DNA from: a virus
Direction: 5' to 3' (one strand)
DNA: 28,700 nucleotides
Virus record (IMG/VR): IMGVR_UViG_3300025122_002815
Span: 1 to 28,700 of that record
The translations under genes were made by a program, and so were the position numbers. The first letter of the stretch is position 1. The number at the start of each line of letters is the position of its first letter. Below, in pieces: positions 15,069 to 28,608 of this stretch. Below the pieces are notes generated by a model that was not told where the DNA came from, ran no database searches, and worked only from the letters and a program-made list of their open reading frames with translations.

Positions 15069-15398
15069 TTAATATACATTTCCAGTTTTCTTAAAATTCT
15101 CAAACATTACATCTACAATTGCAGCAGCTTCTTCCCACGGCCATTTTTTTGTACTATTCAAATTATTAACAACCTGTTGAGGTATAGCAGAAGTTGGAGG
15201 AACTACTATACTCCATAGTTCTTCTCCTTCATATCCTTCAAGATCTTTCATATCTTCAGGAATTCCGAATCCTTCTTCTACTATTTTAATATCTGTGTTC
15301 AACTTTGTATTTATTAATAATAATTTATAATTTGAGTCCCCTAAAACATTTTTTACATAAATATCTTTTTTATAATCTGCTGTTCTAATAATTTTCAT
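15069..15398 (-). CDS. Unknown 109-aa protein with MKIIRTADY N-terminal tag
   Basis: The product starts MKIIRTADYKKDIYVKN, a variant of the tag shared by many proteins of this cluster, and continues as a small soluble alpha/beta protein (EELWSIVVPPTSAIPQQVVNN, then a WPWEEAAAIVDVMFENF helix). I do not recognise the family. Its ATG overlaps the TGA of a nine-residue leader ORF as ATGA, so translation is probably coupled to the leader. It stops 16 bases before the protease gene. It is probably a minor or internal head protein by context only. Confidence 0.75.
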   Translation of the reverse strand: MKIIRTADYKKDIYVKNVLGDSNYKLLLINTKLNTDIKIVEEGFGIPEDMKDLEGYEGEELWSIVVPPTSAIPQQVVNNLNSTKKWPWEEAAAIVDVMFENFKKTGNVY

Positions 15399-15424
15399 AT
15401 TATTGCTCTTTTTTTAAATGACAT
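15395..15424 (-). CDS. Leader ORF MSFKKRAII overlapping the 109-aa gene
   Basis: Ten codons including the TGA stop. Shine-Dalgarno TAGGA lies eight bases upstream and the stop overlaps the following start as ATGA. The first seven codons and the ribosome site copy those of the protease gene (cassette 15405-15438). It could be a translated coupling peptide or just the relic of a duplicated gene start. Confidence 0.5.
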   Translation of the reverse strand: MSFKKRAII

Positions 15425-15435
15425 AATTTAATTTC

Positions 15436-15819
15436 CTATAAATTTTTATAAATTTCTGTCCAATAGGTATCCCAGTTGGTTTCTCGCCTAAGTAAAGTAA
15501 TAGTAGATTCGTCCAAAGCCAGATAAGAAGCATAAACAGTACTTCTCCCATAAATTTCTCCTCCAAAGAAATTAGACATTTTTTGTACAGAGGTTTCTCC
15601 TTCTCCGTCATACAATTGCCCATCAATCTCTACCGCAACATGATAGATATCTGGTTCTTCCGAAAGTTCAGATTCATCTTCTACATTACTAATTACTACT
15701 ATCATCACACTTTTTCCTTGTTCTTGAGCTTTTTTTCCAAAAGCTATAGCATACATCCCACAATTTCCAGAACACATATCTTGTGCTGTTTTATATTTTG
15801 CTGTTTTAATAATTTTTAT
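15436..15819 (-). CDS. Tagged papain/NlpC-like cysteine peptidase candidate, apparent ATA start
   Basis: Starting at ATA 15819 the frame reads xKIIKTAKYKTAQD and then MCSGNCGMYAIAF, so the cluster tag precedes the first ATG (15777) by 14 codons. A Shine-Dalgarno GAAAGG sits six bases before the ATA, while nothing suitable precedes the ATG; I therefore prefer the ATA, although ATG 15777 (113 aa) is the conventional choice. The core has a Cys-containing helix (CSGNCGMYAIAFGKKA), then IYHVAVEIDGQLYDGEGE with a His on a strand and a later Asp, the arrangement seen in small phage proteins of papain-like or transglutaminase-like fold. Activity is inferred from Cys, His and Asp order only. It could process a virion protein or be structural. 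Confidence 0.6.
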   Translation of the reverse strand: MKIIKTAKYKTAQDMCSGNCGMYAIAFGKKAQEQGKSVMIVVISNVEDESELSEEPDIYHVAVEIDGQLYDGEGETSVQKMSNFFGGEIYGRSTVYASYLALDESTITLLRRETNWDTYWTEIYKNL

Positions 15820-15854
15820 ATCAAGCCTTTCTTTGCTCTTTTTTTAAATGACAT
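15816..15854 (-). CDS. Leader ORF MSFKKRAKKGLI before the cysteine-peptidase-like gene
   Basis: Twelve codons plus TAA, with AAGGA upstream (cassette 15835-15868). The first half equals the protease start; the second half (AAGAAAGGCTT) equals part of the 236-aa gene's tag KKWAKKGF, so this leader is a recombinant of two modules. Its stop overlaps the ATA at which the next gene appears to begin. Confidence 0.45.
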   Translation of the reverse strand: MSFKKRAKKGLI

Positions 15855-15876
15855 AATTTAATTTCCTTATTCTAAA

Positions 15877-16281
15877 TTAGAATTCTATCCCTCTTCTCCG
15901 CATATCGTCTTCCGCTGCTAATTCGGCTTGTCCTTCCGAATATTCATCATAATACTCACGTTGTTCTGGAGACAATTTTTCATAATATACCTCTAATACT
16001 TTCCCAGTACCATCACACGATTCACACTTCTTATCATAAGCTCCTCCCATATATTCCTCAAATTCATTACCACCAGGAGTATTCTCCATCATCATTTCAT
16101 GTCGAGCCTCATCACTTATTTCTCCCATATAGTCACTACTTGCTCCCGAACCTCGACAGTTGTCACATATTTCCCATGTAGCAGGAACTCTTATTTTTTC
16201 ACCTTCATACCCAATTTCCATAGTAGTAAATTCTGCCTGCTTTTTAACTTTACTATAATTTTTTGTCTTAATAATTTTCAT
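15877..16281 (-). CDS. Tagged zinc-binding protein with DnaJ-like CxxCxGxG pairs, 134 aa
   Basis: The N-terminus MKIIKTKNYSKVKKQAEF is the cluster tag. Two zinc-knuckle halves follow, CDNCRGSG (39-46) and CESCDGTGKV (86-95), spaced as in a half DnaJ cysteine-rich domain, with a Met/Glu-rich helix between them and an acidic C-terminus. Such CxxCxGxG pairs bind zinc and mediate protein contacts; no J-domain is present. It is preceded by two overlapping leader ORFs, and the second differs from an in-frame extension of this gene by one G. Function is unknown; a minor head component or assembly chaperone is possible. Confidence 0.75.
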   Translation of the reverse strand: MKIIKTKNYSKVKKQAEFTTMEIGYEGEKIRVPATWEICDNCRGSGASSDYMGEISDEARHEMMMENTPGGNEFEEYMGGAYDKKCESCDGTGKVLEVYYEKLSPEQREYYDEYSEGQAELAAEDDMRRRGIEF

Positions 16282-16282
16282 A

Positions 16283-16330
16283 TTAAAGCCTTTCTTTGCC
16301 CCATTTTTTTATTTGTTTTTTCATTTTCAT
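16283..16330 (-). CDS. Leader ORF MKMKKQIKKWGKERL, frameshifted copy of a tag
   Basis: Fifteen codons plus TAA, ending one base before the 134-aa gene. Its DNA matches the start of the 236-aa gene apart from GGGG in place of GGG. Removing one G would give MKMKKQIKKWAKKGFN joined in frame to MKIIKTKNY. It is either a recent frameshift, a sequencing error, or a deliberately separate leader. Confidence 0.45.
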   Translation of the reverse strand: MKMKKQIKKWGKERL

Positions 16331-16356
16331 ATTATTGCTCTTTTATTAAATGACAT
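16327..16356 (-). CDS. Leader ORF MSFNKRAII
   Basis: Ten codons including TGA, with TAAGGA upstream that also contains the TAA stop of the 236-aa gene. One base differs from the standard cassette (AAT for AAA, Lys to Asn). The stop overlaps the next leader's ATG as ATGA, so two leaders lie in series before the 134-aa gene. Confidence 0.45.
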   Translation of the reverse strand: MSFNKRAII

Positions 16357-16368
16357 TTTTTAATTTCC

Positions 16369-17079
16369 TTATCTATTAAATCCTTGAATAAATTTATATA
16401 ATTCTTCAGGATTATTTTTGAGAGATAATAAAATCATTCCCCAAGGTCCGTTCTTAAAATTAGGATTCATTTTTGATGAATCAGCTATAAATTCATTTAC
16501 AACATCACCAGGATCAACCCCATTTTTCAAGTTTCTTAAAGCATTATCCTTAGGATTAAAATTATTTTGAGGTTGAACTTTTTGACCCCCTTGTTGTTGG
16601 TTTTTAAGGAAATTTCTAAGTTCTGCTCTAAACTCAGGATCAACATATCCCCAATGAGAAAAATTATTACCTTCTATAGATAAAATTCTTTTCCATCCTT
16701 CAATAGTAGCGTTTCTAGTTTCTTCTGTTTTAAATTCTTCATCAGCAAGTCCCCAAAGATTAGGCTCTTTTAATAATGTTTTTTTGTGCGATTCAATACC
16801 ATATTTTCTAACAATATCTTCAAGTCCTTGTATTAAAAGTTCTTCAGGAACCCTGCTCCACTCATAAGGACTTCTTGATAAATATTGTTTCCACGCTTCA
16901 ATAGTAAAATTTCTGAGTTCTTCTGTTTTTAAATCTTCATCAAGATAATCCCACTCTTTAGGATATTCTAATATTTTTTTCTTCAATTCTTCGATAGAAT
17001 TATTCCCTTCAGGTTGCGATTGTGCTTTTATTTTAAAGCCTTTCTTTGCCCATTTTTTTATTTGTTTTTTCATTTTCAT
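16369..17079 (-). CDS. Tagged helical repeat protein, 236 aa
   Basis: The basic tag MKMKKQIKKWAKKGFKIKAQ combines both tag types seen in the cluster. Residues 35-155 hold four degenerate helical repeats centred on W43, W74, W109 and W143, of the form W-x-x-(L/V)-(D/P/A)-x-E-(F/L); two of them continue KTEExRNxTIExWKxxL almost identically. The C-terminal 80 residues form a further helical unit rich in Asn. The repeats suggest a protein-binding superhelix. A start-codon-less cassette copy lies upstream, so initiation probably uses the AAAGAG stretch before the ATG. The family is not recognised. Confidence 0.75.
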   Translation of the reverse strand: MKMKKQIKKWAKKGFKIKAQSQPEGNNSIEELKKKILEYPKEWDYLDEDLKTEELRNFTIEAWKQYLSRSPYEWSRVPEELLIQGLEDIVRKYGIESHKKTLLKEPNLWGLADEEFKTEETRNATIEGWKRILSIEGNNFSHWGYVDPEFRAELRNFLKNQQQGGQKVQPQNNFNPKDNALRNLKNGVDPGDVVNEFIADSSKMNPNFKNGPWGMILLSLKNNPEELYKFIQGFNR

Positions 17080-17085
17080 ATTATT

Positions 17086-17119
17086 GCTCTTTTTTTAAAT
17101 AAAATTATTTAATTTCCTT
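17086..17119 (-). repeat. Degenerate leader cassette copy 5
   Basis: It matches the other cassettes except that ATGTCA has become ATTTTA, so the leader peptide has lost its start codon. The AAAGGAAATTAAAT ribosome-site part is intact and overlaps the stop of the upstream 141-aa gene. Confidence 0.85.
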
Positions 17120-17544
17120 TAATAATCTATTGGATCTACATCGTAATCTTGAAAATCACCTAATTCTTGAGGTCTTCTGTTTTTATTTTTATTTCTATTT
17201 CGGTTTTTCCTCATATCTCTTGCAATCGCATCATTCCGTTCTCCATCTTCATAATCACCCAATTCTGGATGATCTTGATATCTTCCTGAATGAAAAAGAT
17301 CCGCACCTTCAGCCTGTGCTTCTTGTTCCCCTTCTATTTCAGCATTAAAACATTCTTCACATAAGTCATATCCTTCACTACCAATACCTCCATATTCTTC
17401 ATTTATCTTAAGACATTCATAACACACAAATTCATTAGGAAAAAGTTCTTGTTTAGCATTATATTTTGCATCCATTTCTTCTTTGAGATTTTTATAAAGA
17501 TGTTCTTGTGCTTTTATATATTTTGCTGTTTTATACCAGTTCAT
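17119..17544 (-). CDS. Tagged zinc-ribbon protein MNWYKTAKY..., 141 aa
   Basis: It begins MNWYKTAKYIKAQEHL, a tag variant ending in KAQ. A four-cysteine zinc ribbon follows (C41-x2-C44 and C62-x2-C65: FVCYECLKINEEYGGIG, then YDLCEECFNAE). The remainder is acidic with a basic Arg/Asn/Lys run near 110-125 and is probably disordered. The start overlaps the stop of the 615-aa gene by one base (TAATG), implying coupled translation. Function is unknown; nucleic-acid or protein binding through the ribbon is possible. Confidence 0.75.
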   Translation of the reverse strand: MNWYKTAKYIKAQEHLYKNLKEEMDAKYNAKQELFPNEFVCYECLKINEEYGGIGSEGYDLCEECFNAEIEGEQEAQAEGADLFHSGRYQDHPELGDYEDGERNDAIARDMRKNRNRNKNKNRRPQELGDFQDYDVDPIDY

Positions 17545-19391
17545 TATACTAATCTCATATCCGCTCTATCCATTGCTCTCATATCCATTTGTTCGTCCCT
17601 TAAAACATCGGGATCGGGTTCAGAATATGCTCTCGCCATCTCATTTACATGATCCCAAGATTGCTGTTCTAGATCTTCTGTATGTTTTTCAAAAACCTCT
17701 TCAGGTATTTCAGTGTTAGTTCTTAAATCTATAACTTTTTCTACTTCTATACTCGCTGAAGACCCAGGATAATCCCATGTCCGTTCCTCACCAGAATATA
17801 CAGTCCCTTGAATTCGCACATCAGATTCTATCTCCTCACCAGTCGCCTCGTTATACCCACGTATAACTCCTTCAAAATCAAAACTACTATCATCGACAGC
17901 TTTCTTTTTCATTTTTATATATGCTGCTGTTTTAATAACTTTTATAAATCCTCCTGCTATTGATGGTTCTAATGCACTAGATGGTTGTTCCGCAGGTGGA
18001 CCTTCCACAGGAACTCTTTCAGGAGTAGTAGAAAGGTCTCCCTTATTCTTCTCTCCCCTACTCTTCACAGCCAAACGAATAGCGTTATATACTCTACCCA
18101 TTTCTATAACTAATTCTACATTCCCCATACCTCCTGTTGGTCCAAACAATTTAGGATTAACTTTTCCCTCTTCAGAAAAAATAGGCTGACTATATTTTTT
18201 AATAAATCCTAAAGCAGAATCTAATAAAGATGTCATATTTTTAAGAACTTCTGCTCCTTCTCTTGATCTTAAATATTCTTCGGTAAACTCACCTTTTTGC
18301 ATACCAGCTATTTGGGCATTAATTTTTTGTAAAGAATCCCGTACTTTTTCTAAAACTTCTATATTGAAACTTATTTCTTTTAGCTCCGGTGACTTTTGAA
18401 ATTCACGAGCTTCAAAAGACCTATAGCCCATAGGTTTGTTAGGAGAACCTCTAGGTTGTGTTCCAGGTTCAATTTCGGGGATAGGCTGAAGAGATGGATC
18501 TTCAATTTCGGGAAATTCTCCTTCCATCCTATTCTGTCTTTCGTCCCATTTTTGTTTTTTTCTCTCAATCTCTTTTGCTTTGTTAGCAATTTCCGCATCA
18601 GAGATCCTTACCAAAGATTGTTTAGCCAACTCAGATATGTTAAAAGTTGGTAAATCATTTAAAAGTTTTTCTGGATTTTCACTATACCAGAGAAGGGCAG
18701 TATCAATTGCGTCTCTGTCATTATTAAGAAGTTCACCAGATCTTAATGCCTCTATAGATTTTGTTCTAAATTGTTCTACACCTTCTGTTCCATATTCAGG
18801 TTGAGATTCTATCGCCTGCACTTGACCGTTTAGCTCTGCTAATCTTTTATCTACTAATGGAAGTATTCTCTGAACTCTTAATGGGATAGTAACAAGCCCA
18901 ATCTCACGATCCCCATCTAATTTATCGACTTTAGAGTTATATCCCCTAATTGCTTCATTAGCAGCCTCCCTGACCTGTTCTTTTCTTTCTTCATCTAACA
19001 AACCAAGTTTTTCTATTGTTCCTTTGTAAGGTAATTCAATAGGTATTGCTGTTTTTAGATCAAGTAACCACAGCTTACCAGGATCTTCTTTCTTTTTTTT
19101 CTTTGGTAATTCATGATGTAGGTAATAGTATTTTTTTCCATCATAGGAAACAATATTCTTATCTTCTAAATAAAATATTTTAGGAAGAGAGATACCTTCT
19201 ATCCCCCCCAAACCTGATAAAAGACGTTTAAGCTCTTTTATTTTTGTGTTAGGTAGAATACGAATCATATCCTGTAATAAATAAGTATGTTCTTGATACA
19301 TTTTACTTTTAGTTTCAGAAGAAGGCTGATAAATAGGCAGAGCAACCTTCCTTAAACTTTTTCTGTATTTTTTTGTTTTAATAATTTTCAT
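17544..19391 (-). CDS. Tagged unknown protein with a second internal tag, 615 aa
   Basis: The N-terminus MKIIKTKKYRKSLRKVALP is the cluster tag. The first 480 residues are soluble and largely helical, with long charged helices (GYNSKVDKLDG, KEIERKKQKWDERQ). At residue 483 a second tag begins (IKVIKTAAYIKMKKKAV), directly preceded by GGAGGA in the DNA, and a separate acidic domain of about 115 residues follows (FEGVIRGYNEATGEEIESDV). This looks like two tagged genes fused, or a second protein initiated internally at ATA 17945. Its ribosome site TAGGA overlaps the stop of the preceding gene. The family is not recognised. Confidence 0.75.
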   Translation of the reverse strand: MKIIKTKKYRKSLRKVALPIYQPSSETKSKMYQEHTYLLQDMIRILPNTKIKELKRLLSGLGGIEGISLPKIFYLEDKNIVSYDGKKYYYLHHELPKKKKKEDPGKLWLLDLKTAIPIELPYKGTIEKLGLLDEERKEQVREAANEAIRGYNSKVDKLDGDREIGLVTIPLRVQRILPLVDKRLAELNGQVQAIESQPEYGTEGVEQFRTKSIEALRSGELLNNDRDAIDTALLWYSENPEKLLNDLPTFNISELAKQSLVRISDAEIANKAKEIERKKQKWDERQNRMEGEFPEIEDPSLQPIPEIEPGTQPRGSPNKPMGYRSFEAREFQKSPELKEISFNIEVLEKVRDSLQKINAQIAGMQKGEFTEEYLRSREGAEVLKNMTSLLDSALGFIKKYSQPIFSEEGKVNPKLFGPTGGMGNVELVIEMGRVYNAIRLAVKSRGEKNKGDLSTTPERVPVEGPPAEQPSSALEPSIAGGFIKVIKTAAYIKMKKKAVDDSSFDFEGVIRGYNEATGEEIESDVRIQGTVYSGEERTWDYPGSSASIEVEKVIDLRTNTEIPEEVFEKHTEDLEQQSWDHVNEMARAYSEPDPDVLRDEQMDMRAMDRADMRLV

Positions 19392-19399
19392 AATAAATC

Positions 19400-19831
19400 C
19401 TAATTTATATAAGCAATAATATCATATTTAGAGAAAGGATCTTCTTGCGGCCCTCCTCCAGATGCCACAACCGTTCCATATAAAGTAGTTGGCCTACCTT
19501 TGTTATTTGTAAAATAAATTTCTACTGTCCATTTTTTACGATACGGAACACCTATCTCATTGTTAGTATGTTCGCCAGAACTCCTTGTCCAATTTAATCC
19601 TGCTGCACTAAAAGCATCCCAAATCTTTCTTATTCCTCCCCATCCTTCATCACGAAAAAATCCACTAATATCAGGAATGATCTTTTTAGCTATTCTCCTA
19701 GCCTGTACATTGGTCTTGCCATTAAGAGGATTATTATCAATAGGAGGGGAACCTTCCGCTTCGGGAATTGGTTCAGAAATTGGTTCTAAAGATTGTGCTA
19801 TCTTATAATTTTTTGTTTTTATTATTTTCAT
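19400..19831 (-). CDS. Tagged unknown protein, paralogue B, 143 aa
   Basis: A paralogue of the 140-aa gene at 20177..20599: both share NVQARRIA(K/N)KIIPD, (K)IWDAF(S/D)AAGL, FTNNKGR, and end YDI(I/T)AYIN. The tag MKIIKTKNYKIAQSLEP opens it. The shared domain starts near residue 35 and ends with beta strands (KKWTVEIYFTNNKGR, TLYGTVVASG). No catalytic motif is evident. The pair flanks a two-helix membrane protein, suggesting a local duplication. Function is unknown; a minor virion protein by context. Confidence 0.8.
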   Translation of the reverse strand: MKIIKTKNYKIAQSLEPISEPIPEAEGSPPIDNNPLNGKTNVQARRIAKKIIPDISGFFRDEGWGGIRKIWDAFSAAGLNWTRSSGEHTNNEIGVPYRKKWTVEIYFTNNKGRPTTLYGTVVASGGGPQEDPFSKYDIIAYIN

Positions 19832-19857
19832 AATAGACGAAAACTCCCTTTTACTTA

Positions 19858-19917
19858 TTAAAAGCTTCCTTTAACCCATTTCTTTATTTTTCTTACATAA
19901 ACCCATCTACTACTCAC
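19858..19917 (-). pseudogene. Remnant of an IKKW-type tag between paralogue B and the membrane protein gene
   Basis: The frame from GTG 19917 reads MSSRWVYVRKIKKWVKGSF then TAA. Its second half resembles the tag KKQIKKWAKKGF of the 236-aa and Q-rich genes. No well-spaced ribosome site precedes it, so it is more likely a decayed gene start than an expressed peptide. Confidence 0.4.
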
Positions 19918-19924
19918 CTAAAAA

Positions 19925-20149
19925 TTATTTGTTCTTGAACAAATATAAAATAATCGCTAATGCGATTAGACCAGCTACTCCTGCACCTCCTAAAGTGGCA
20001 ATTAAAGCTGTAAGATTAGCTACGATTCCTCCCACAAAAGGAATTCCTGAACCAAAAATAATCTCTGCTACAACACCCAAAGCGATTAAAGATAAACCAA
20101 CTTCAGTAATATCTTTGATCCACGTTTTAACATTGTCTAAAATAGCCAT
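19925..20149 (-). CDS. Small two-helix membrane protein, 74 aa
   Basis: Residues about 15-45 (VGLSLIALGVVAEIIFGSG) and 48-71 (LIATLGGAGVAGLIALAIILYLF) form two hydrophobic segments with a short Gly/Pro turn. An amphipathic start (MAILDNVKTWIKDITE) precedes them, and the protein ends KNK. It has a good GGAGAG site and lacks the cluster tag. Size and topology fit a holin-like or small virion membrane-active protein, but small membrane proteins are easily misassigned and no lysis gene is nearby. It lies exactly between two paralogous tagged genes. Confidence 0.75.
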   Translation of the reverse strand: MAILDNVKTWIKDITEVGLSLIALGVVAEIIFGSGIPFVGGIVANLTALIATLGGAGVAGLIALAIILYLFKNK

Positions 20150-20176
20150 TTTTCTCTCTCCAAAAAGTAATAAAAT

Positions 20177-20599
20177 TTAATTAATATAAGCCGTAATATC
20201 ATATCTAGATAAAGGATCTTCTACGGACCCCGCTCCAGATGCCGTAACTATCCCATACAAAATAGTTTCTCTACCTTTATTATTTGTAAAATTTATTTCT
20301 ACTTTCCATTCTTTAGCATAAGGAAGAACACTTCCTTCTTCTTTAAGATATTTATTATCCATTATTCCCCAACTTAATCCTGCTGCATCAAAAGCATCCC
20401 AAATCTTTTTTACTCCTTCCCAACTTTGATCAGAATAAAACCCACTAACATCAGGAATTATTTTATTAGCTATTCTTCTAGCTTGTACATTACTTTTCCC
20501 ATCAAGAGGATTAGGTTTCTTTGGTAGTCCTTCGTTTAATTCTCCTTCCATATCATATTCATTTAGTTTTTCATATTGTGCTGTTTTAATAGTTTTCAT
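20177..20599 (-). CDS. Tagged unknown protein, paralogue A, 140 aa
   Basis: It begins MKTIKTAQYEKLNEYDMEG, with the tag variant IKTAQ. The rest aligns with the 143-aa paralogue over its whole length, differing mainly in a variable stretch near residues 80-92 where the other has SSGEHTNNE. Its ATG overlaps the stop of the Q-rich gene by one base (TAATG). The domain is shared only within this pair as far as I can see; no family recognised. Confidence 0.8.
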   Translation of the reverse strand: MKTIKTAQYEKLNEYDMEGELNEGLPKKPNPLDGKSNVQARRIANKIIPDVSGFYSDQSWEGVKKIWDAFDAAGLSWGIMDNKYLKEEGSVLPYAKEWKVEINFTNNKGRETILYGIVTASGAGSVEDPLSRYDITAYIN

Positions 20600-21042
20600 T
20601 ATAGATTCTCTTGCCCTATTGGATTTTTAACTTGTTGAACAGCCTGTTGAGTAGTCATTTGCATTTTCCTTTTACCCTGTTGTACAGAAGCTATTAATAA
20701 TTGTAAAGACTGTTGGGCAGTATTTAAAGCAGCACTTAATTGTTCTTCATTTTCATATCCATTCCAACTACTATAAAGTTCTCTTGCTTCAGTAATAAAT
20801 TTTTTTGCCATAGGAAGAACTTTTCTTTTAGTGTTTTCGAAATCTTTCTGTTGTTGTTGAGGATCAACATTCTCCTGTCCTTGTTCTTGAGGAGCTTGTT
20901 GAAGTGTTGATTGTCCTTGTTGAGGAACTGATTGTCCCTGTTGAGGAACTGGTTGTCCCTGTTGAGATACTGATTGAGGAGTTACTTGTGCTACTTTTAT
21001 ATTAAAATCTTTCTTCGCCCATTTTTTTATTTGATTTTTCAT
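20599..21042 (-). CDS. Tagged Gln-rich protein, 147 aa
   Basis: The start at ATG 21042 (MKNQIKKWAKKDFNIKVAQ) is preferred over an upstream in-frame ATG at 21057 because GGAG is well placed and the product then begins with the cluster tag. A Gln/Pro repeat of eight-residue period (QQGQ(P/S)VPQ) covers residues 25-45, followed by a Gln-rich linker and a helical domain (KVLPMAKKFITEARELYSSW, QLSAALNTAQQSLQLLIASV). The start overlaps the stop of a small zinc-ribbon gene as ATGA. Unknown function. Confidence 0.75.
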   Translation of the reverse strand: MKNQIKKWAKKDFNIKVAQVTPQSVSQQGQPVPQQGQSVPQQGQSTLQQAPQEQGQENVDPQQQQKDFENTKRKVLPMAKKFITEARELYSSWNGYENEEQLSAALNTAQQSLQLLIASVQQGKRKMQMTTQQAVQQVKNPIGQENL

Positions 21043-21188
21043 AAACTTGCTCCACATTTAGAACATTTAATTATTCCAACTCCACAATTTATTTTTCCAC
21101 ATTTAGAACATTTAAGACAAACTTTTCCCTCTTCCTTAGAAGGATTTAAAACTTTTATTTCACTTTTTATTCCACTTTTATACAACAT
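21039..21188 (-). CDS. Small zinc-ribbon protein, 49 aa
   Basis: ATG 21188 has AAAGGA six bases upstream, and the frame runs to a TGA that overlaps the next start as ATGA. The product starts MLYKSGIKSEIKVLNPSKEE and contains KCSKCGKINCG and KCSKCGASL, a compact ribbon with two CSKC knuckles. The good ribosome site, the knuckle pattern and the coupled end make this a real gene despite its size. Role unknown. Confidence 0.75.
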   Translation of the reverse strand: MLYKSGIKSEIKVLNPSKEEGKVCLKCSKCGKINCGVGIIKCSKCGASL

Positions 21189-21263
21189 TTCTATTCCTTT
21201 TCTATTCTTTAAAGAAAGAATAAATCCTTTTTATTTAAAATATCGAAATATATTTCCTATTAA

Positions 21264-21518
21264 TTTAATTTATTTAAAAATATATTAAAAATAGGAAGAT
21301 TTGATGCTTCGAGTAAAACTTGTTCTTGTTGTGGATGGATTAAAAAAGATTTAACTCTCAATAACAGAGAATGGAAATGTAAAGAATGTAAAACAAAGCA
21401 TAATAGAGATATTAATGCTGCCATTAATATTAAAAAATTTGCTTTGTTAAAACAAAATTCAGGGCAGGAACTGTCCGGTGAGCTACAGAGTGCTAACATG
21501 CCTGCATTAGTGGGATGA
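21264..21518 (+). pseudogene. tnpB: C-terminal remnant of an IS200/IS605-family TnpB
   Basis: This is the only plus-strand coding remnant. The frame is open from 21264 without a start codon and from about 21282 reads ILKIGRFDASSKTCSCCGW, then LTLNNREWKCKECKT and HNRDINAAINIKKFA, ending at TGA 21518. That is the zinc ribbon (CxxC...CxxC) and the last RuvC motif (RDINAA) of TnpB, the RNA-guided nuclease of IS200/IS605 elements. The N-terminal roughly 300 residues and the left end are missing, so it is inactive as a protein. No tnpA is present. Confidence 0.9.
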
Positions 21519-21530
21519 ATATCTGTGGAA

Positions 21531-21552
21531 TCCTCTACTAGAGGAAGTTCAA
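21531..21552 (+). mobile_element. Probable right end of the IS200/IS605 element
   Basis: Downstream of the tnpB stop, TCCTCT and AGAGGA pair around an ACT loop, followed within a few bases by TTCAA. IS200/IS605 right ends carry such a subterminal hairpin just before a TCAA-type cleavage site. The boundary to flanking phage DNA is therefore placed near 21552. Confidence 0.65.
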
Positions 21553-22340
21553 CCTTTAACGTGTCGTGGAATTTTTACATTTGCAAGATCGTTAATAGTA
21601 TAACGCTGTACTTCTTTAGGATATTTTACTGCCCACTTTTCACTTGCGTGAGAAAATGCTCCCGAAATAGTAGTAAAATATTCACCACTAGGAGCATAAA
21701 CTTTAGCTTTAGGATCTTCTGGAAGTCTTTTTATACCAGAAAAAAATCTCTTCTTACCTTCTCTTGTTAAAGCTGGACCCACGACAATAAAATAGTCACC
21801 ATTAGTACTATAGTCGTGACCTTCCCATCTTTTATAAACTCCAGGTCCTATGTCTTTTTCAAATCTCTTTTTTAATTTGACAGACCTTTCGTGATAATGT
21901 TCTTTCCAATCAATTCCCCTGTCTTTTATTCTTTTTCTCCCTGCGATTTTTTTCATTTTTTTACTCGAAGATTGTAAGTTAATCCCCTCCATAGTTTGTT
22001 GAGAAGGAGCAATAGTAGAAATTATGCCACGATCATGATCGTCACGACCTACAGTTAAATCATAAAATTTTCCATCTTTACCTTTAGCTGTAACTATCGT
22101 GCCTTCAGGACGACCCCCTCCTAATTCTTGAATTCTACGAGGCTCAAAAGCAGATCCGAATTGTCTAACTACATCTAAGTCGTATCCATAACCATTGTTT
22201 AAAATAGATTGTGCTATCTTTGTTTCTGAGCTAACGTGAAGAGGACTATATGGAGAAAAATAACCATACTTATTAAAATTATCTATAAGTTCCTTACCTG
22301 TACAAGAATTAACATATTTTTTTAAATTAAATTTACTCAT
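21549..22340 (-). CDS. Unknown 263-aa protein whose 3' end abuts an insertion element
   Basis: It starts MSKFNLKKYVNSCTG, weakly like the FNLKK tags, and overlaps the portal gene stop by eight bases, implying coupled translation. The middle is basic (SSKKMKKIAGRKRIKDRG, SVKLKKRFEKD). A C-terminal alpha/beta part reads DYFIVVGPALTREGKKRFFSG and AKVYAPSGEYFTTISGAFSHASEKW. No family is recognised. The TGA stop falls within the TTCAA of the IS right end, so the original protein was probably longer and was cut by the insertion. Confidence 0.7.
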   Translation of the reverse strand: MSKFNLKKYVNSCTGKELIDNFNKYGYFSPYSPLHVSSETKIAQSILNNGYGYDLDVVRQFGSAFEPRRIQELGGGRPEGTIVTAKGKDGKFYDLTVGRDDHDRGIISTIAPSQQTMEGINLQSSSKKMKKIAGRKRIKDRGIDWKEHYHERSVKLKKRFEKDIGPGVYKRWEGHDYSTNGDYFIVVGPALTREGKKRFFSGIKRLPEDPKAKVYAPSGEYFTTISGAFSHASEKWAVKYPKEVQRYTINDLANVKIPRHVKG

Positions 22341-25300
22341 CAGCTACAATTCCTATTAAAAATAAATGTCCATAACCATTAAGTTCGCAAACTTTAATTC
22401 CTATTTTTTCTTTATTGTCTTCAATATATTCATCAGCAGAAGCATATTTCTTCATTCCTTCACTACTACTTCTCTTTTTCATGTCTTTAGCAGCATCTAC
22501 AACATTTTTTTGAATTACATCTTTTACTGCATCAAAATGATCTTCTAGTGCATTTTCTTTAAATCTTAAAATTCTCCATCCTATGTTTGCTAATTTTTGA
22601 TCTCTAAGTTGATCTCTTTCTAAGAAATCTTCTCTCTGATGCCATATCTCTCCGTCTGCTTCTAATCCTACCCCAATTCGAGGATAAGCAAAATCTAACA
22701 TAAATGCGTTTTGTTCTCCTGGAACCTTAACAGAATATTGTCCAAATAATTCATAAGGAACATTTAAAGATTGTAAAAGTTTATACATTTTTTGTTCTAG
22801 TTTAGTTAGTTTTATCATCTTAGAAGGAGGACCTTGTTGTTGTTCTTCTATTGCTTTTTTGTCTCCTCTCTTTCCTATCATAGGTAATTTAGTTTCTGCT
22901 GCTGCTCCCATCGGAGCACCCATTCCACCGCCCATGCCTCCACCCATTCCTCCACCCATTTCTCCACCAGGAGCACCCATTCCACCAGGAGGAGCACCAC
23001 CCATTCCACCACCCATATCTCCACCAAGAGGAGCACCACCCATTCCACCCATATCTCCACCCATTCCACCCATTCCACCCATTCCACCACCCAAAGGACC
23101 CCCACCTTGAGCAGAAGGAATCATCCCTGAAGCACTAGCCATGATTTGTTCATCTCTTATTTTTTGAACCTCTTCGTCATATTCGTCATAATCTAGATCT
23201 AATTCTTCAAGAACAGTTTGAGCAGACACGACTCCTTTATCCCACAACTGTATTAAAGTTTGAATTTTACTTGTTTTATCTCTTAGCTGTAAATCATTCC
23301 AAACAAGTCTTGGATGTAAATATACTCTCTTTTTTAATTCTTTACTTTCTTCTTCATCTACAAAACCTTGCATCATAGCAATAGGTAAAAAGATGTGTTT
23401 TTCAATCCAAGATTTTAATTTATTTCTCCAATTATCTAACCTTCTTATTAAAACTTCTACTCCAACCTGGGCCGCAGAATTACCCTGAATGCTAACCTTG
23501 CCATTCCTCATTGTCACGAAAAGCTCATGAGGAACTGAAAAACAATATATTTTTCCAGAATAAGGAACCCTAGTTATTTCTTTCCCAATATATTTTTTAG
23601 ACTTAGATGCTAAGGTAGGTTTTCTACCTTTAAATCCCTTAGAAATATAAGCAACATATTGCTGAAGTCTTGTTTTATATTCATAACCTTTTTTATTAAA
23701 ATATTTTTTATTACTTTTTTTCTTATTTATTTTACTAATTTTAGTTACATATCCACACTTAAATGCTATCTCAGCAAAATCATTAGATAATTGCTTGCTA
23801 GATGTATAGTAAGAAATTCTTGGCATTTTTCTATCTTCACTCTCTGTTATACATCCATCACCATTTATCATAGCTTCAATAACTATTTCTAAACATTCTG
23901 GAACAAGATTTTTAACAAAAGTAGAAAGCCTTTTAGTAGCAGAATTATCCCCAAAATTTTCTTTTAAATGTTGCGACAATTCTGGCTTATATACAGAAAC
24001 ATCTACATCACTATCATAATAAGTAGAAAACATATTATTAAATAAGTTATCTATATCGTCTCTAGCTTTTCCATCTTTAGTCTGTCCAATCGAAACTGTA
24101 GTATATTTTCTTATCCTATTCTTTCTCTTTTCTTCTTTAACCCATCCTTCAGAGACATAATAACCAACCATTTTACAATAATCATATATGGAATATTTTT
24201 CATCTCCTATCCGAACTGACTCAACATATTTCCCATCATAACCATCTACTGCTCCTATAAAACTAGCTCTTGGGCGAACATCTTCTGCTTTTATAAATCT
24301 AAACTCATCAGAATCTTTCTTAGCACTCCACATTCTATGATTCGGAGTAACTAAAACATCTATTTTATCAGTATTAAAAAGAACCATCTCCCCATTATAA
24401 TCATAGACCATTTTTTCAAAAGGAAGATGGTATTCAATCAACTTTGATTCGGGATTATAACAAGCTATTCTGTCTTCATTTGGATCTATTTCCCAATGAG
24501 GTTTAAATCCAGAATCTGTAAGAGTAAGAGTATCTTCGCTAAAACAATATCCGCTCATTTCACCATTAAGAATAGCTTGGTTCAACATTAAACCATCTAA
24601 TAATTCTTTTCCTACACCTTCAAGATCTTGATTTATATTATGAATCTTGCCAGTATTTCCCTGAATAGAAATATGACCATTTCTCATTGTAACAAAAAAA
24701 CCAGTTGATGTTGTAAAACACCAAACCTTTCCCTTATATCTTTTGGCAAAAATATGTCTTTTTTCAACTCTTGGCATACTACCTTTCCCTATACCATCTA
24801 TATTACAGTTAATTCTATATATAGGTTCACAAATTGTTCTTGACAAGGTTGGCGAATAACCAGCTTTGAACATAATTTCAAGAATATCTTCTGCCAGTTC
24901 TTTACCTTTAATTTTTATTTGTACAGAAACACAATTTTTATAATGATGCCAAGATGCGTCTCCCTTACAAAAAGATTCTATTAATATTCTTAGTTTATTG
25001 GGTGAAAGATTTTTTACAAAATTAGGTATCTTTTTGTCCGAAGAATTAGAACCGAACCATTCTTTTATTTGCCATGCTATATCTTTTCTTAACACATCCC
25101 AAGTCGTAGCACGTCCATCGTATTCATATTTCGAATATTCGATACCAAGATCAGGCATCATATAATCTATTTCATCACAGATATTAGAATTCTTTACAGG
25201 ACATTGAGATATAGAAACTCTATATTGTCTTGCTGGCACATTATATGTTGTGTAACCTTCTGATAAATAATAACCAGCGTATTGTAAAAAAACATCTACA

Positions 25301-26703
25301 GGAACCTTATATCCACAAATATCAACAGATTCTATCTCTTCCCCTTTATAATTCGCAACACATTTTACATAACTGTCTCCCTTCCCAGATATTTTAGCAA
25401 AATCTTTTGCTTCTAATGTATATGCCGTTTTTAAATCTCTTTTATAACCCAACATTTTATGATTGGGTGTAACACAAATATCTACCTTATTCCCTTTAAA
25501 TTCTGTCATAAATCCGTCATAATCATATTCATAAAAATCAAGCGGTTTTTCATACTTCATCTCGTTTGTCTCAGGATCAAATACCATAATTTTTTCTTCT
25601 TCTCCAACCTCCCAATAATTTTTCCATCCAAGATCAGTAAGAACTTTTGTATCATCAGAATAACAAGCCCCATACCACTGATAGTCAAAAGCGTGGTGAG
25701 TAACAACAGTTAAATTAGGATCATTAGCAACAGCACCAAGTTGATTAACAATATCTTGTAGGTCTTCTGCTGTAGCAGGACGATCTTTTTCTCCAACTTT
25801 TACAACTCTAACTGGCAGGATAAGTCTTTCTGCAATAATCCAATTAGCAGTCATTATTTTAGTTTTGTAAGCAAGTATAGTGAACAACCTTTGTAACATA
25901 GAAGTTCCATAGGTTCCATATGCACTTGCATTATGTTTAATATGACTAATACATTTATCTGAGAGAGGAAGAGGTTGTCCAGAAAGAACAAGTTTTATAA
26001 GTTCTTGAGGTAAACTTTCGTAAGCTTCTTTAGGTTCTTTTCTTTGAACCATTATTCTAAGTTCTTCATCAGGAACTAGATAATATTTTGGTTTTTTAGC
26101 AAGAGGATTATCTCTAACTTCTATATAATCGGGATTAAGAACTTTTATATCTTTAAAAGTTCCGTCTTCATGTCTACATTGTTCTCCATCGCTAGTTTTT
26201 CCTTTCCCTCCGCAGACGGGGCAATCAATTTCTAGAAAGGGAAAGACATCTCCTATAAGAAAATATTCATGACTTATATCATCACATTTTTCTGGTAATT
26301 CTATTTCTTTAGCAAAATGTTCATAATATTTTAATATTTTTTTATCTTTACATTCTAATTTAAAACCGTTCATTGAAAAATTAGAATAGAAATCTACACC
26401 AGCAGCTACCTTTGGTTCATTTGTATAATAAAATCTTGCCCATTGGTAAATTTCTCTTCTCTTACTAGCAATTTGCCAGTTTTGAGGAGTGTGGAGAGGA
26501 GAAAAGAACATAGGCTGAGTCATTGCGATATTCGCACTTTGACCAGCAAATTGAGCATTTTTTGTGATAGGGAAATTTACTAACTGGGATTCTGGTAAAT
26601 TATCTTTATTGTTATCGGAGGATTTTATTTCATATCCTCCTGAAGCAATAACCATTCTTCTTTTATTTTTAGGGGAATTATCAGACAATATTAATTTAGC
26701 CAT
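22333..26703 (-). CDS. Portal protein with two inteins and a C-terminal Vsr/DUF559-like nuclease domain, 1456 aa
   Basis: The portal ring sits at the head vertex and passes DNA. Portal signatures are IYQWARFYYTNEPKVAAGVDFYSNF, KVLNPDYIEV, SMLQRLFTILAYKTKIMTANWIIAERLILPVRVV, and after splicing DLEGVGKELLDGLMLNQAILNGE joined to SAAQVGVEVLIRRLDNWRNK. A CPVCGGKGK/C176 cluster lies at 161-176. Inteins occupy residues 347-683 and 720-1075. Residues 1200-1265 are almost only Gly, Met, Ala and Pro. Residues about 1298-1400 form a PD-(D/E)XK-like domain of the Vsr/DUF559 type: LTKLEQKMYKLL, FMLDFAYP (D1337), GVGLEADGEIWHQ (E1348, D1350, H1355), RDQLRDQKL and GWRILRF. Spliced length would be 763 residues. 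The start has a GAGAG site. Confidence 0.88.
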   Translation of the reverse strand: MAKLILSDNSPKNKRRMVIASGGYEIKSSDNNKDNLPESQLVNFPITKNAQFAGQSANIAMTQPMFFSPLHTPQNWQIASKRREIYQWARFYYTNEPKVAAGVDFYSNFSMNGFKLECKDKKILKYYEHFAKEIELPEKCDDISHEYFLIGDVFPFLEIDCPVCGGKGKTSDGEQCRHEDGTFKDIKVLNPDYIEVRDNPLAKKPKYYLVPDEELRIMVQRKEPKEAYESLPQELIKLVLSGQPLPLSDKCISHIKHNASAYGTYGTSMLQRLFTILAYKTKIMTANWIIAERLILPVRVVKVGEKDRPATAEDLQDIVNQLGAVANDPNLTVVTHHAFDYQWYGACYSDDTKVLTDLGWKNYWEVGEEEKIMVFDPETNEMKYEKPLDFYEYDYDGFMTEFKGNKVDICVTPNHKMLGYKRDLKTAYTLEAKDFAKISGKGDSYVKCVANYKGEEIESVDICGYKVPVDVFLQYAGYYLSEGYTTYNVPARQYRVSISQCPVKNSNICDEIDYMMPDLGIEYSKYEYDGRATTWDVLRKDIAWQIKEWFGSNSSDKKIPNFVKNLSPNKLRILIESFCKGDASWHHYKNCVSVQIKIKGKELAEDILEIMFKAGYSPTLSRTICEPIYRINCNIDGIGKGSMPRVEKRHIFAKRYKGKVWCFTTSTGFFVTMRNGHISIQGNTGKIHNINQDLEGVGKELLDGLMLNQAILNGEMSGYCFSEDTLTLTDSGFKPHWEIDPNEDRIACYNPESKLIEYHLPFEKMVYDYNGEMVLFNTDKIDVLVTPNHRMWSAKKDSDEFRFIKAEDVRPRASFIGAVDGYDGKYVESVRIGDEKYSIYDYCKMVGYYVSEGWVKEEKRKNRIRKYTTVSIGQTKDGKARDDIDNLFNNMFSTYYDSDVDVSVYKPELSQHLKENFGDNSATKRLSTFVKNLVPECLEIVIEAMINGDGCITESEDRKMPRISYYTSSKQLSNDFAEIAFKCGYVTKISKINKKKSNKKYFNKKGYEYKTRLQQYVAYISKGFKGRKPTLASKSKKYIGKEITRVPYSGKIYCFSVPHELFVTMRNGKVSIQGNSAAQVGVEVLIRRLDNWRNKLKSWIEKHIFLPIAMMQGFVDEEESKELKKRVYLHPRLVWNDLQLRDKTSKIQTLIQLWDKGVVSAQTVLEELDLDYDEYDEEVQKIRDEQIMASASGMIPSAQGGGPLGGGMGGMGGMGGDMGGMGGAPLGGDMGGGMGGAPPGGMGAPGGEMGGGMGGGMGGGMGAPMGAAAETKLPMIGKRGDKKAIEEQQQGPPSKMIKLTKLEQKMYKLLQSLNVPYELFGQYSVKVPGEQNAFMLDFAYPRIGVGLEADGEIWHQREDFLERDQLRDQKLANIGWRILRFKENALEDHFDAVKDVIQKNVVDAAKDMKKRSSSEGMKKYASADEYIEDNKEKIGIKVCELNGYGHLFLIGIVADE
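22909..23106 (-). repeat. Gly/Met-rich low-complexity linker in the portal gene
   Basis: Short degenerate repeats of GGMGGMGG, GGDMGGGMGG and GGAPPGGMGAP type connect the portal body to the nuclease-like domain. It is likely a flexible linker and prone to replication slippage. The long open frames on other strands and frames here are composition artefacts. Confidence 0.9.
23479..24546 (-). mobile_element. Portal intein 2, LAGLIDADG-type, 356 aa
   Basis: Block A starts at Cys720 (CFSEDTLTLTDSGFKPHWEI), block B has KIDVLVTPNHRMW, the endonuclease helices are MVGYYVSEGW and VIEAMINGDGC, and the end is FVTMRNGKVSIQGN with Ser+1. The penultimate residue is Gly, not His, as in the related class ending NGKxxxxGN. 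Removing it joins GEMSGY to SAAQVG, a natural portal sequence. Confidence 0.93.
24655..25665 (-). mobile_element. Portal intein 1, LAGLIDADG-type, 337 aa
   Basis: Block A starts at Cys347 (CYSDDTKVLTDLGWKNYWEV), block B has KVDICVTPNHKML, the endonuclease helices are YAGYYLSEGY and LIESFCKGDAS, and the end is FVTMRNGHISIQGN with Thr+1. It is clearly homologous to portal intein 2, and only 36 extein residues separate them. Removing it joins YQWYGA to TGKIHN. Confidence 0.93.
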
Positions 26704-26725
26704 ATTTTTACTCTCAACTTTTTAA

Positions 26726-27073
26726 TTAACCATCTATAGCAAGATCTTCACAGGATTTAGTAATATCTAAAGTATTATCGACATTTTTTTTTCTTTTATT
26801 AACACAAGGGCATTGTTTCATTTCTTCAGAGACAAAGACATTTTTTACTCTTTTCTTTTTATCACTTTTAGATGCTTGAAGAGGTCTATTTTTTTGAATA
26901 AATTGTGGTTTATTGGTGCTGAACGGATTATATTGTTTTCCTTTATCATCTGGTCTAAAATTAGTAAGACCTATTTCTACTCCTCTTACTCCACAATTAG
27001 GGCACATAAGTTTTTCTTGCGACAACTCAGCTCCGCATTGTGGGCACGCAATTTCCACCTTTCGAGGGTCCAT
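26726..27073 (-). CDS. Zinc-ribbon protein upstream of the portal, possibly translated by frameshift, 115 aa
   Basis: From ATG 27073 the product has a four-cysteine zinc ribbon (ACPQCGAELSQEKLMCPNCGVRG), then a basic, probably disordered region (KKKRVKNVFVSEEMKQCPC). No good ribosome site precedes this ATG. The same frame is open for about 20 codons further upstream, reading KLADLKPLRELKDPFKRPED with coding-like composition, and it leads into a run of ten A in the end of the preceding gene. A minus-one shift there would fuse the two products. Role unknown. Confidence 0.65.
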   Translation of the reverse strand: MDPRKVEIACPQCGAELSQEKLMCPNCGVRGVEIGLTNFRPDDKGKQYNPFSTNKPQFIQKNRPLQASKSDKKKRVKNVFVSEEMKQCPCVNKRKKNVDNTLDITKSCEDLAIDG

Positions 27074-27126
27074 ATCTTCTGGACGCTTAAAAGGGTCTTT
27101 TAATTCTCTTAGGGGTTTAAGATCTG

Positions 27127-28608
27127 CTAACTTTTTTTTTTAGAGGATGCTTCTATCCAATTAAAAACTTTACCTTCATTTACAGGTCCACCTTCTATAT
27201 CTCCTTTTTCTCTAGCTGCTTCTAGCCTTGAGCCTAGATTTCCATATTCAGGAAGAATTGGTCTGCGTTTTTGACCTGGTTTTAATTGATAATTACTTGT
27301 TTCTGGGATATTTCTATCTATTTCAAATCTTTTATTAAGATATCCACCTACCCAGTTTCCTTCTTTATCTCTATATGGGCGAGAATACTTATCCATAATA
27401 TTTTCACGCCAGATTGATTCCCAGTCTATGTTCCAGATATCTCCTACCGTAAGACCGAATCCTTTATTTCTTTCCATAATATGCCAGTCTGAAACAGGTT
27501 GTCTTAAGAAAGGATCCATTCTTGGTTTATTAGTATTCCATACAACAACATTTTCTAGAGATTTATGTTGTGCTGTTTTCTTTAAATTATAAGATTTTAT
27601 TTCTTTTTTAGAATATTTTTTTGCCAATTTTTTTATTTCTTCATCAACTTTTGCTGAAGTAAAAGGAGCTTCTATAATTTCTTCGCTATTAGGATCGACA
27701 CTTTTCAAAACATCGGGCAACATATCAAAAATTCTAATTGATATTCCAAGTTTTTCATTACTTTCCAGACCTTCTTGATAGAAAGTAGTCAAAGCATCTT
27801 CTACTATTTGTTGTTGATCTGCTTCTTCTATATAGTTAAGAAGTTCTTCTCTAGCTGCTCTATTATCCATAGTATCAAGTCTATCTTTTAGATCTGCCCC
27901 ATCCTTTAAATCATTTATACCTTGAGAAGAAAGATCATCTTGTTGATCAAGCATATCTCCTTCCATTTCAGGAGCTTCATTTAATCCCATATCATCCATA
28001 GGAGGTTGTCCGACAGGGGGATTAAAAGGTTGTGCTTTTTTAAGATTGAAAGCAATTTTTTTATTTTTAGTATTTGCCATATTCGTTTGTCCTGTATTTT
28101 CTAATGCATTCGCATTAGGGGTTCCCGATTCTATTTGTCCCTGCATATCTGCTGCTTGTTCTGCTTGTTGACGATAGGCTTCATAAAGGCTTTTAAAATT
28201 AGCCATATTTATCATTACTTCTTGTTGTATTCTTTCTAATTCATCTGCGGGTGCTTGTGCAACCATTCCGCCAGAGAGTCCCATCATATTATCTCTAATA
28301 ACGTTCATTTGTTCATCAAGAGGCGATTGTGCTTTCTTTTTTATATTAGAATTCTTTTTACTTGCCTGAACTCCTAATTGTGATTGAACAGCTTGTGGTT
28401 GGACAGATGCTCTCTGTATCGCATTTTTCATTATATTAAATAATCTTATACCGTTGTCTGCCATTTGTGATAAGTCTTCCATCGGCATGTCTAAATTCAT
28501 ATCATTTAGAAGAGAAAATAATAATCTCCATGACATCTGAATATTTGCCGAATTAGCATCTACAGAAGGAGCTTGTGCTTTCTTTTTTATATTAAAAGCT
28601 TTTGTCAC
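27127..28608 (-). CDS. Multi-tag head-associated protein or polyprotein, 493 aa
   Basis: The GTG start at 28608 has AAGGA seven bases upstream. Four copies of the KAQ tag occur in one frame: NIKKKAQ (6-12), NIKKKAQ (88-94), NLKKAQ (188-193) and NLKKTAQ (341-347). They divide the protein into segments of about 75, 85, 140 and 145 residues: helical and Met/Gln-rich ones first, then an acidic helical one, then a Trp-rich domain (VVVWNTN, DWHIMERNKG, IWNIDWESIW). It looks like several tagged proteins fused, or a polyprotein cut at the tags. It ends SSKKKS in a run of ten A. Position before the portal suggests a head or connector-associated role. Confidence 0.75.
   Translation of the reverse strand: MTKAFNIKKKAQAPSVDANSANIQMSWRLLFSLLNDMNLDMPMEDLSQMADNGIRLFNIMKNAIQRASVQPQAVQSQLGVQASKKNSNIKKKAQSPLDEQMNVIRDNMMGLSGGMVAQAPADELERIQQEVMINMANFKSLYEAYRQQAEQAADMQGQIESGTPNANALENTGQTNMANTKNKKIAFNLKKAQPFNPPVGQPPMDDMGLNEAPEMEGDMLDQQDDLSSQGINDLKDGADLKDRLDTMDNRAAREELLNYIEEADQQQIVEDALTTFYQEGLESNEKLGISIRIFDMLPDVLKSVDPNSEEIIEAPFTSAKVDEEIKKLAKKYSKKEIKSYNLKKTAQHKSLENVVVWNTNKPRMDPFLRQPVSDWHIMERNKGFGLTVGDIWNIDWESIWRENIMDKYSRPYRDKEGNWVGGYLNKRFEIDRNIPETSNYQLKPGQKRRPILPEYGNLGSRLEAAREKGDIEGGPVNEGKVFNWIEASSKKKS
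27132..27141 (-). other. Run of ten A at the end of the multi-tag gene, candidate slippage site
   Basis: Ten A followed by GTTAG encode KKKS-stop. Slipping one base back opens the frame KKKLADLKPLRELK that continues into the zinc-ribbon gene. Either transcriptional slippage or ribosomal frameshifting would produce a fusion; a homopolymer sequencing error is the alternative. Confidence 0.5.

Follow-up and report, generated by a model that had tools for sequence, protein, structure and literature searches.

Short N-terminal tags of proteins in a phage G-like giant phage are probable propeptides of a head-cargo system

Background

In phage T4, capsid targeting sequences of the internal proteins IPI, IPII and IPIII are propeptides that serve in loading and are trimmed by the protease gp21, and the Alt transferase is among the cargo (PMC9026906). 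In SPN3US and phiKZ, N-terminal propeptides of head proteins are cut by a self-cutting prohead protease, in SPN3US after A-x-E (PMC10052503); according to the cited passages, the head proteases of T4, phiKZ and SPN3US cut after Glu (PMC9026906, PMC10052503). Packaging of phage ADP-ribosyltransferases and polyvalent proteins has been proposed from gene context, and at least 10 transferases are stated for phage G (PMC9503650, PMC5512222), for which a virion mass spectrometry analysis also exists (PMC8570332). In this study, a family of short basic N-terminal tags was analysed in a 28.7-kb stretch of viral DNA, the entire record IMGVR_UViG_3300025122_002815 (referred to as the window), and in its relatives. 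Probably the tags are short propeptides by which giant phages of the phage G type load head cargo: they would bring the tagged proteins into the head, be trimmed by the head protease and yield injected cargo.

The proposed system resembles the T4 internal proteins in a short N-terminal propeptide common to different proteins, a gp21-like protease fold and ADP-ribosyltransferase-like bodies comparable to Alt, as far as these are described in the source cited (PMC9026906). It differs from T4 in a predicted cut at K-x-A/S and not after Glu, in many more proteins and several tag types, and in a protease fused to a scaffold-like part. With SPN3US and phiKZ it shares a giant phage, N-terminal head propeptides and a self-cutting prohead protease, the last two being predictions here; the SPN3US propeptides given are mostly long (111–254 residues, with two of 20 and 24), whereas the present tags have about 8–20 residues and the K-x-A motif (PMC10052503). 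The enzyme kinds are those of the head-packaged transferases and polyvalent proteins, but for these the cited passages argue packaging from fusions and neighbouring genes and describe no N-terminal tag (PMC9503650, PMC5512222). None of the strings MNWYKKAQ, MNWYKK, MNWYKQ, MKIIKTAKY and MKIIKTA was found in the literature text searched, and no description of such tags or of the K-x-A motif appeared in titles and abstract beginnings among the matches listed, with subscription papers and preprints mostly outside both searches.

Results and discussion

Tagged proteins in the window

The main genes of the window lie on the minus strand, as do all window features given below, and include head genes for a portal with intein-like inserts, a head protease with a long scaffold-like part, a decoration protein, a major capsid protein and a fibre. 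A search with the major capsid protein found matches in 216 phage records, among which Bacillus phage G (Donellivirus) ranked first (54.6% identity). This match identifies the window as a piece of a giant phage from the relationship of phage G; major capsid protein homology and the order portal, protease, decoration and major capsid protein, which mark this lineage, were both found. Phage G likewise has N-terminal tags of its own (KRLIKK-A/S); unlike those of the window they are of another type, and its protease is a separate gene of 300 amino acids.

All nine tags named in the sequence-only reading, which had described them as related starts of otherwise unrelated proteins, are present in the window. 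They are MKIIRTADY of a 109-residue protein (gene 15069–15398, tag 15372–15398); (I)KIIKTAKYKTAQ, in frame with gene 15436–15777 (tag 15781–15819); MKIIKTKNY of a 134-residue protein (15877–16281, tag 16255–16281); MKMKKQIKKWAKKGFKIKAQ of a 236-residue protein (16369–17079, tag 17020–17079); MNWYKTAKYIKAQ of a 141-residue protein (17119–17544, tag 17506–17544); MKIIKTKKY of a 615-residue protein (17544–19391, tag 19365–19391); MKIIKTKNYKIAQ of a 143-residue protein (19400–19831, tag 19793–19831); MKTIKTAQY of a 140-residue protein (20177–20599, tag 20573–20599); and MKNQIKKWAKKDFNIKVAQ of a 147-residue protein (20599–21042, tag 20986–21042), for which a longer start is possible at 21057. The tag of gene 15436–15777 and its translation are uncertain because the first codon is ATA, with no ATG, GTG or TTG before the tag. 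Seven tags, taken as 12 residues each, had a mean pairwise BLOSUM62 score of 30.9, whereas 2000 within-tag shuffles averaged 8.1 and did not exceed 14.5.

The bodies are mostly unrelated, as had been proposed, but not every one is, since the products of genes 19400–19831 and 20177–20599 are 60% identical and paralogous. The second, internal copy reported for the 615-residue protein was found (FIKVIKTAAYIKMKKKA; KVIKTAAY at residues 484–491, 17919–17942); no homologue of either half of this protein was present among the fetched proteins of relatives, so the test for a fusion failed in this case. Inspection by eye agreed that the major capsid, decoration, fibre and 74-residue membrane-like proteins bear no tag. 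Tag-like starts beyond the nine were seen in the head protease (MSFKKRA, 15052) and a 263-residue protein (MSKFNLKKY). A strict regular expression for the two main tag types scored just 4 of the 23 called window genes, and the others fit looser forms. In a structure model of the 140-residue protein, run without the first Met, residues 1–21 and 23–32 were of low confidence and the remainder was folded; a fold search gave just weak NTF2/VirB8-like matches (best E 0.029).

Relics were read by hand upstream of tagged genes: the leader open reading frames (ORFs) MSFKKRAII (15395–15424; 10 codons, with a stop that overlaps the start of the tagged gene after it) and MSFNKRAII (16327–16356; 10 codons), each ending in a stop, and a frameshifted relic of an MKMKKQIKKW tag (MKMKKQIKKWGKERL, then a stop; 16283–16330) upstream of the gene at 16281. 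The leaders (within 15395–16356), just upstream of tagged genes, bear the 5′ end of the protease gene (MSFKKRA). These relics show that copying of DNA also contributed to the spread of the tags.

Tags as exchangeable modules across the lineage

Loci of relatives were picked by capsid protein alone (80 of 102 relatives, contigs up to 548 kb). Genes were called by a simple longest-ORF rule, some starts therefore being wrong, and identical proteins were merged. Some loci overlap (L075 and L161 on one contig; L043 and G031 on one contig), so that a few proteins are doubly counted among the body clusters, the [KR]-x-[AS]-Q proteins and the relatives of the 493-residue protein described below.

The two main tag types were found at 73 of 1153 distinct ORF starts versus 3 of 9643 internal windows in the 80 loci, with at least one such tag in 26 loci; other tag types may account for the rest. 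Among whole records, the MNWYK pattern occurred in 17 of 31 and the KIIKT pattern in 4 of 31. Nine records were fetched whole, eight of them picked for MNWYK/KIIKT hits. An N-terminal motif search of their 1175 genes ranked NWY first (53 N-termini, 0 body segments), and tags were present in 76 of 1440 genes of the nine contigs versus 5 of 7809 internal windows. Tagged genes made up 55 of the 436 located 30 kb or less from the capsid gene versus 21 of 1004 elsewhere, indicating enrichment by the head genes without confinement to them. The expectation that the tags always lie beside a prohead protease fails on these 21 genes, more than 30 kb from the capsid gene, and on phage G, the tags of which are genome-wide. 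Counting [KR]-x-[AS]-Q that starts at residue 5 gave 14 cases among the 1058 proteins from the 80 loci, where the background per position was 1.0, and 34 cases among all 2397 fetched proteins, where positions further along averaged 2.0.

Exact MNWYK[x]AQ occurred in 13 contigs among 2.9 million viral contigs; eight were capsid relatives, one more had a capsid protein of the family, and in the remaining four neither capsid nor portal was found. Of 4 viral contigs with MKIIKTAKY, two were capsid relatives, a third had a portal match and the fourth had neither. In cellular genome contigs MNWYK[x]AQ had a single match, on a Mucilaginibacter metagenome-assembled genome contig, and this was rejected as out of frame in a 570-residue ORF, the frame being worked out by hand. 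Chance likeness of short basic N-termini was ruled out by the shuffles, internal-window controls and position counts. The AQ dipeptide near N-termini was in excess in four of the nine contigs (ratios 1.7 to 3.4) and not in the other five (0.4 to 1.2); AQ alone is thus not the signal.

Clustering the bodies of the 146 tagged proteins gave 94 clusters, of which 72 had a single member. An alignment of 87 of 91 cluster representatives, which still holds false tags (internal WYDT and SSWYEK matches), had little in common past MNWYK, with a mean column identity of 5%. Homologous bodies were found with differing tags; one body bears MKIIKTAKY, MKLIRTAKS or MSWYKTAS. In two fused proteins (L171, 2811–3428; G029), KTEKYAQ is internal and stands at the fusion joint, where the unfused gene (L172, 600–1004) begins MKIIQTEKFAQ. 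As in T4-type capsid targeting, a short N-terminal peptide is thus common to differing bodies, and on these comparisons the tags are modules. In an 82-kb contig (L165), 16 consecutive genes start with MN(N)WY or MSWY.

Many members of that tagged run (L165, 387–8310) are paralogues of one small family. In L146 and the LR745208 record, a distant relative, another long N-terminal tag is repeated (LRSKLIRLAH..LLPLLKEA), in the LR745208 record at 11 places by tblastn and 6 by exact pattern. Neighbouring genes of L189 start with MKIIRIAK, MRIYRLAF, MKIYRIAQ and MKIYKISQ, a further tag type, and the MKIYKISQ gene has an ADP-ribosyltransferase-like body, judged by eye.

A motif common to tags, head protease and scaffold-like part

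The head protease gene (8162–15052), interrupted by an intein and extended by the long scaffold-like part, encodes 2296 amino acids beginning with the tag-like MSFKKRA. The KTA of a conserved IKTAA site stands before the catalytic domain (residues 33–35, 14948–14956), and a KVAS site directly follows that domain (residues 667–670, 13043–13054). Of 75 hits, 63 were kept as relatives (aligned from near the start, first 60 residues non-identical), and the flanking sites were aligned in 60 rows after L144, L083 and L015 were dropped. At the N-terminal K-x-A, K was present in 59 of 60 and A in 43 of 56; at a second site, [IVM]-[KR]-[TFV]-A-S directly before the catalytic domain, A was present in 59 and S in 47 of 60, while the surrounding stretch varies. 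As regular expressions, the first site was matched in 45 of 60 (9.7 expected from shuffles) and the second in 50 of 60 (2.8 expected). Of the 60 rows, two had no anchor; 57 of the other 58 (12 expected from shuffles) have K-x-A after the catalytic domain, the anchors of L014 and L059 being probably misplaced.

In the scaffold-like part, 219 copies of the motif were counted versus 21 expected (58 protease rows longer than 1600 residues, L015 and L083 included). Among 31 such parts with less than 50% identity, it occurred 114 times forward versus 14 times reversed, and control motifs gave 22 (acid for K), 16 (G/V/L for A), and 30 and 10 (permutations). The major capsid protein (6641–7507 in the window), used as context and negative control, is without the motif phi-K-x-A-[SQAN] (0 versus 10.9 expected, 66 sequences). 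Tagged N-termini had 19 copies versus 0.7 expected, and the bodies beyond residue 34 had 3 versus 2.8 (74 proteins).

In the 493-residue protein upstream of the portal (27127–28608), K-x-AQ was confirmed to occur four times, at residues 9, 91, 190 and 344. Relatives conserve the site FNLKKTAQ-HK but not the segments that precede it. A search with the last segment gave 20 proteins including the window's own, of which 17 align from the segment start; K-x-A followed by Q or S stands directly before the segment in all 17 (L043 and G031 being one contig), and the strict form in 13 of 20. The earlier segments found 0, 0 and 6 relatives, and the last 19. No tblastn match in phages was obtained at E 1e-3 with the C-terminal 147 residues (27127–27570). 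The protein looks like a chain with putative cut sites.

The same motif is therefore common, by these counts, to tags, protease flanks and scaffold-like part. The proposal that the tag is a cleavage signal is strongly supported by the comparison, with K-x-A at the protease N-terminus and flanks, in the scaffold-like part and in the 493-residue protein and absent from 66 capsid proteins; the cut and its exact bond remain predictions. Because the tag carries the likely cutting motif of the head protease, it probably marks proteins for loading into the particle. Insofar as K-x-A/S stands for the cut, the T4-type cut after Glu was not found.

In a structure model of the protease, residues 1–43 and 261–265 were of low confidence and the part in between was good, which places the flanking K-x-A sites in or at the edge of loose stretches. 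Foldseek with the relative L010 matched the human cytomegalovirus protease (E 1.0e-3, probability 1.00) and T4 gp21 (5jbl; E 6.7e-3, probability 1.00), and the modelled fold resembles the herpes assemblin/T4 gp21 type. H103 and S154 are invariant in 31 relatives and are putative catalytic residues.

The intein of the head protease (Intein_splicing 8.1e-9) lies between the catalytic parts; many protease relatives are shorter, and the alignment runs straight through the intein point.

Tagged bodies and phage G

Among the 87 tagged representatives, one member each matched Tad6 (4.5e-35), Acb1 (2.2e-6), cREC_REC, ART-PolyVal, AAA_33, PolyA_pol and HicA, and two matched acetyltransferases. For 50 of 60 tagged proteins scanned individually, part of the tagged set, no Pfam family was found at 1e-5. 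In 38 records, the 2H family, which includes Acb1-like proteins, had 4 hits, all four with an NWY tag; Tad6 had 2, one tagged MNWYKQAQ (G003) and the other beginning with VWFKEA; of the 2 ART-PolyVal hits, one bears a tag and the other is weak and its start unclear. As the families were chosen via tagged members, this test is only partly independent. With matches to anti-Thoeris (Tad6), anti-CBASS (Acb1-like) and ADP-ribosyltransferase proteins, the tagged bodies likely include anti-defence weapons. The sequence-only reading had suggested that the tag designates head cargo, which fits some bodies (ADP-ribosyltransferase-like, Tad6 and Acb1-like) that would be packaged.

Phage G bears its own tag at 41 of 709 ORF N-termini versus 24 of 3148 internal windows (regular expression), spread across the genome. 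Eight of its 10 ADP-ribosyltransferase-like proteins are tagged, in line with a cargo role. A tagged protein (401788) adjoins an untagged paralogue (402412) with 58% identity, and other tagged bodies match ParB, nucleoside deoxyribosyltransferase, ferritin and SLOG families.

Tagged tRNA nucleotidyltransferase-like enzymes were located close to the capsid gene in two relatives (L049, 10896–12527, PolyA_pol 1.2e-25; L046, 12694, by homology). The phage G protein gp346 (L153, 5160–5879) is ferritin/Dps-like (Pfam Ferritin 1.6e-13) and bears the phage G tag; it is possibly a DNA-binding protein packed with the genome.

Proposed role and alternative explanations

If the tags are propeptides, each would consist of a targeting part, which varies by lineage (KIIKT, NWYK, FNLK, KRLIK and others), and a cut site K-x-A/S, after which Q or S is frequent. 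As the head is assembled, the tag would draw its protein into the prohead, probably because it binds the long putative scaffold that is fused to the protease. The protease would free itself at its own K-x-A sites, chop the scaffold at the same motif and trim the tags. Mature cargo would stay inside the DNA-filled head; much of it would enter the host by injection along with the genome and there target its defences and machinery.

Several results weigh against this interpretation. Neither main tag type occurs in 54 of the 80 loci or in any of the 74 genes of G031, tags also lie far from the head region in the nine contigs and in phage G, and the tag regular expressions were set after the data were seen. 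At the position where K-x-A usually stands, MKIIKTKNY and MKIIKTKKY show no clean copy, and between residues 4 and 20 a [KR]-x-A is missing from 27 of 95 NWY tags. Untagged genes have a motif excess of their own (body, 74 versus 40.2 expected; first 34 residues, 17 versus 5.8; 823 genes). The protease fold match includes no hit below E 0.001, with TM-scores of 0.21–0.47. The 2H and Tad6 families were selected after tagged members had matched them, and a tRNA nucleotidyltransferase-like enzyme and a HicA-like protein are unexpected as cargo. The phage G count of 8 tagged ADP-ribosyltransferase-like proteins in 10 is biased, as the search was seeded with seven of the ten and six of these seeds had already been listed as tagged; two are untagged, and one of the three found beyond the seeds is tagged. 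The naming of these transferases is weak, as six that were scanned gave three sub-threshold PARP matches and three none. Annotated core genes of phage G were tagged in 2 of 85 cases versus 39 of 624 others, and this difference was not significant (p 0.21).

Other roles of the tags were also considered. They might mark prohead core proteins that assembly requires and that the protease would afterwards degrade, leaving few mature cargo molecules. The several sites in both the scaffold-like part and the 493-residue protein are as for parts cut to pieces, but the tagged proteins have no motif excess past residue 34 and several of their bodies are enzyme-like, and we regard this role as improbable. 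It is slightly less probable still that the tags direct proteins elsewhere in the infected cell, to the membrane, the nucleoid or a phage-made compartment, with the basic K-x-A docking on a common partner and not being cut; being short and basic and found far from head genes in large genomes, the tags would suit such targeting, but the motif flanks the protease domain, is frequent in the scaffold-like part and is missing from the major capsid protein.

If the tags had no role in the protein and were leftovers of copied gene 5′ ends, comprising leader and start region, that persist because of translation or recent duplication, the leaders and the frameshifted tag upstream of tagged window genes would be explained. 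The tags are, however, kept at the protein level despite differing synonymous codons and recur in diverged genomes, homologous bodies exchange tag types and one tag is internal at a fusion joint, which makes this explanation very unlikely. Propeptides that load cargo and are trimmed by the head protease are the interpretation we consider probable.

Portal protein

The portal protein with intein-like inserts (22333–26703) provides context for the head genes. Its inserts matched LAGLIDADG_3 (7.4e-11) and, at merely 0.019, Intein_splicing, and its C-terminal region has a DUF559/REase_MTES_1575-like endonuclease domain (residues 1332–1400, E 8e-7).

Implications

Giant phages encode hundreds of proteins with no assigned function. 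For the present lineage of head proteases the predicted cutting rule is not the Glu rule described for T4, phiKZ and SPN3US. We lean, by a small margin of belief, towards a cargo code of the lineage, in which each genome, in phage G and its uncultured relatives, uses lineage-specific tags ending in K-x-A to pack dozens of anti-defence and host-modifying enzymes into the head, from which they are injected as infection begins; the first 10–20 residues would then predict the injected proteome. If the tags are indeed a loading and trimming signal, the injected set would be readable from sequence across the lineage, the cultured phage G included, and new anti-defence proteins could be selected by tag.

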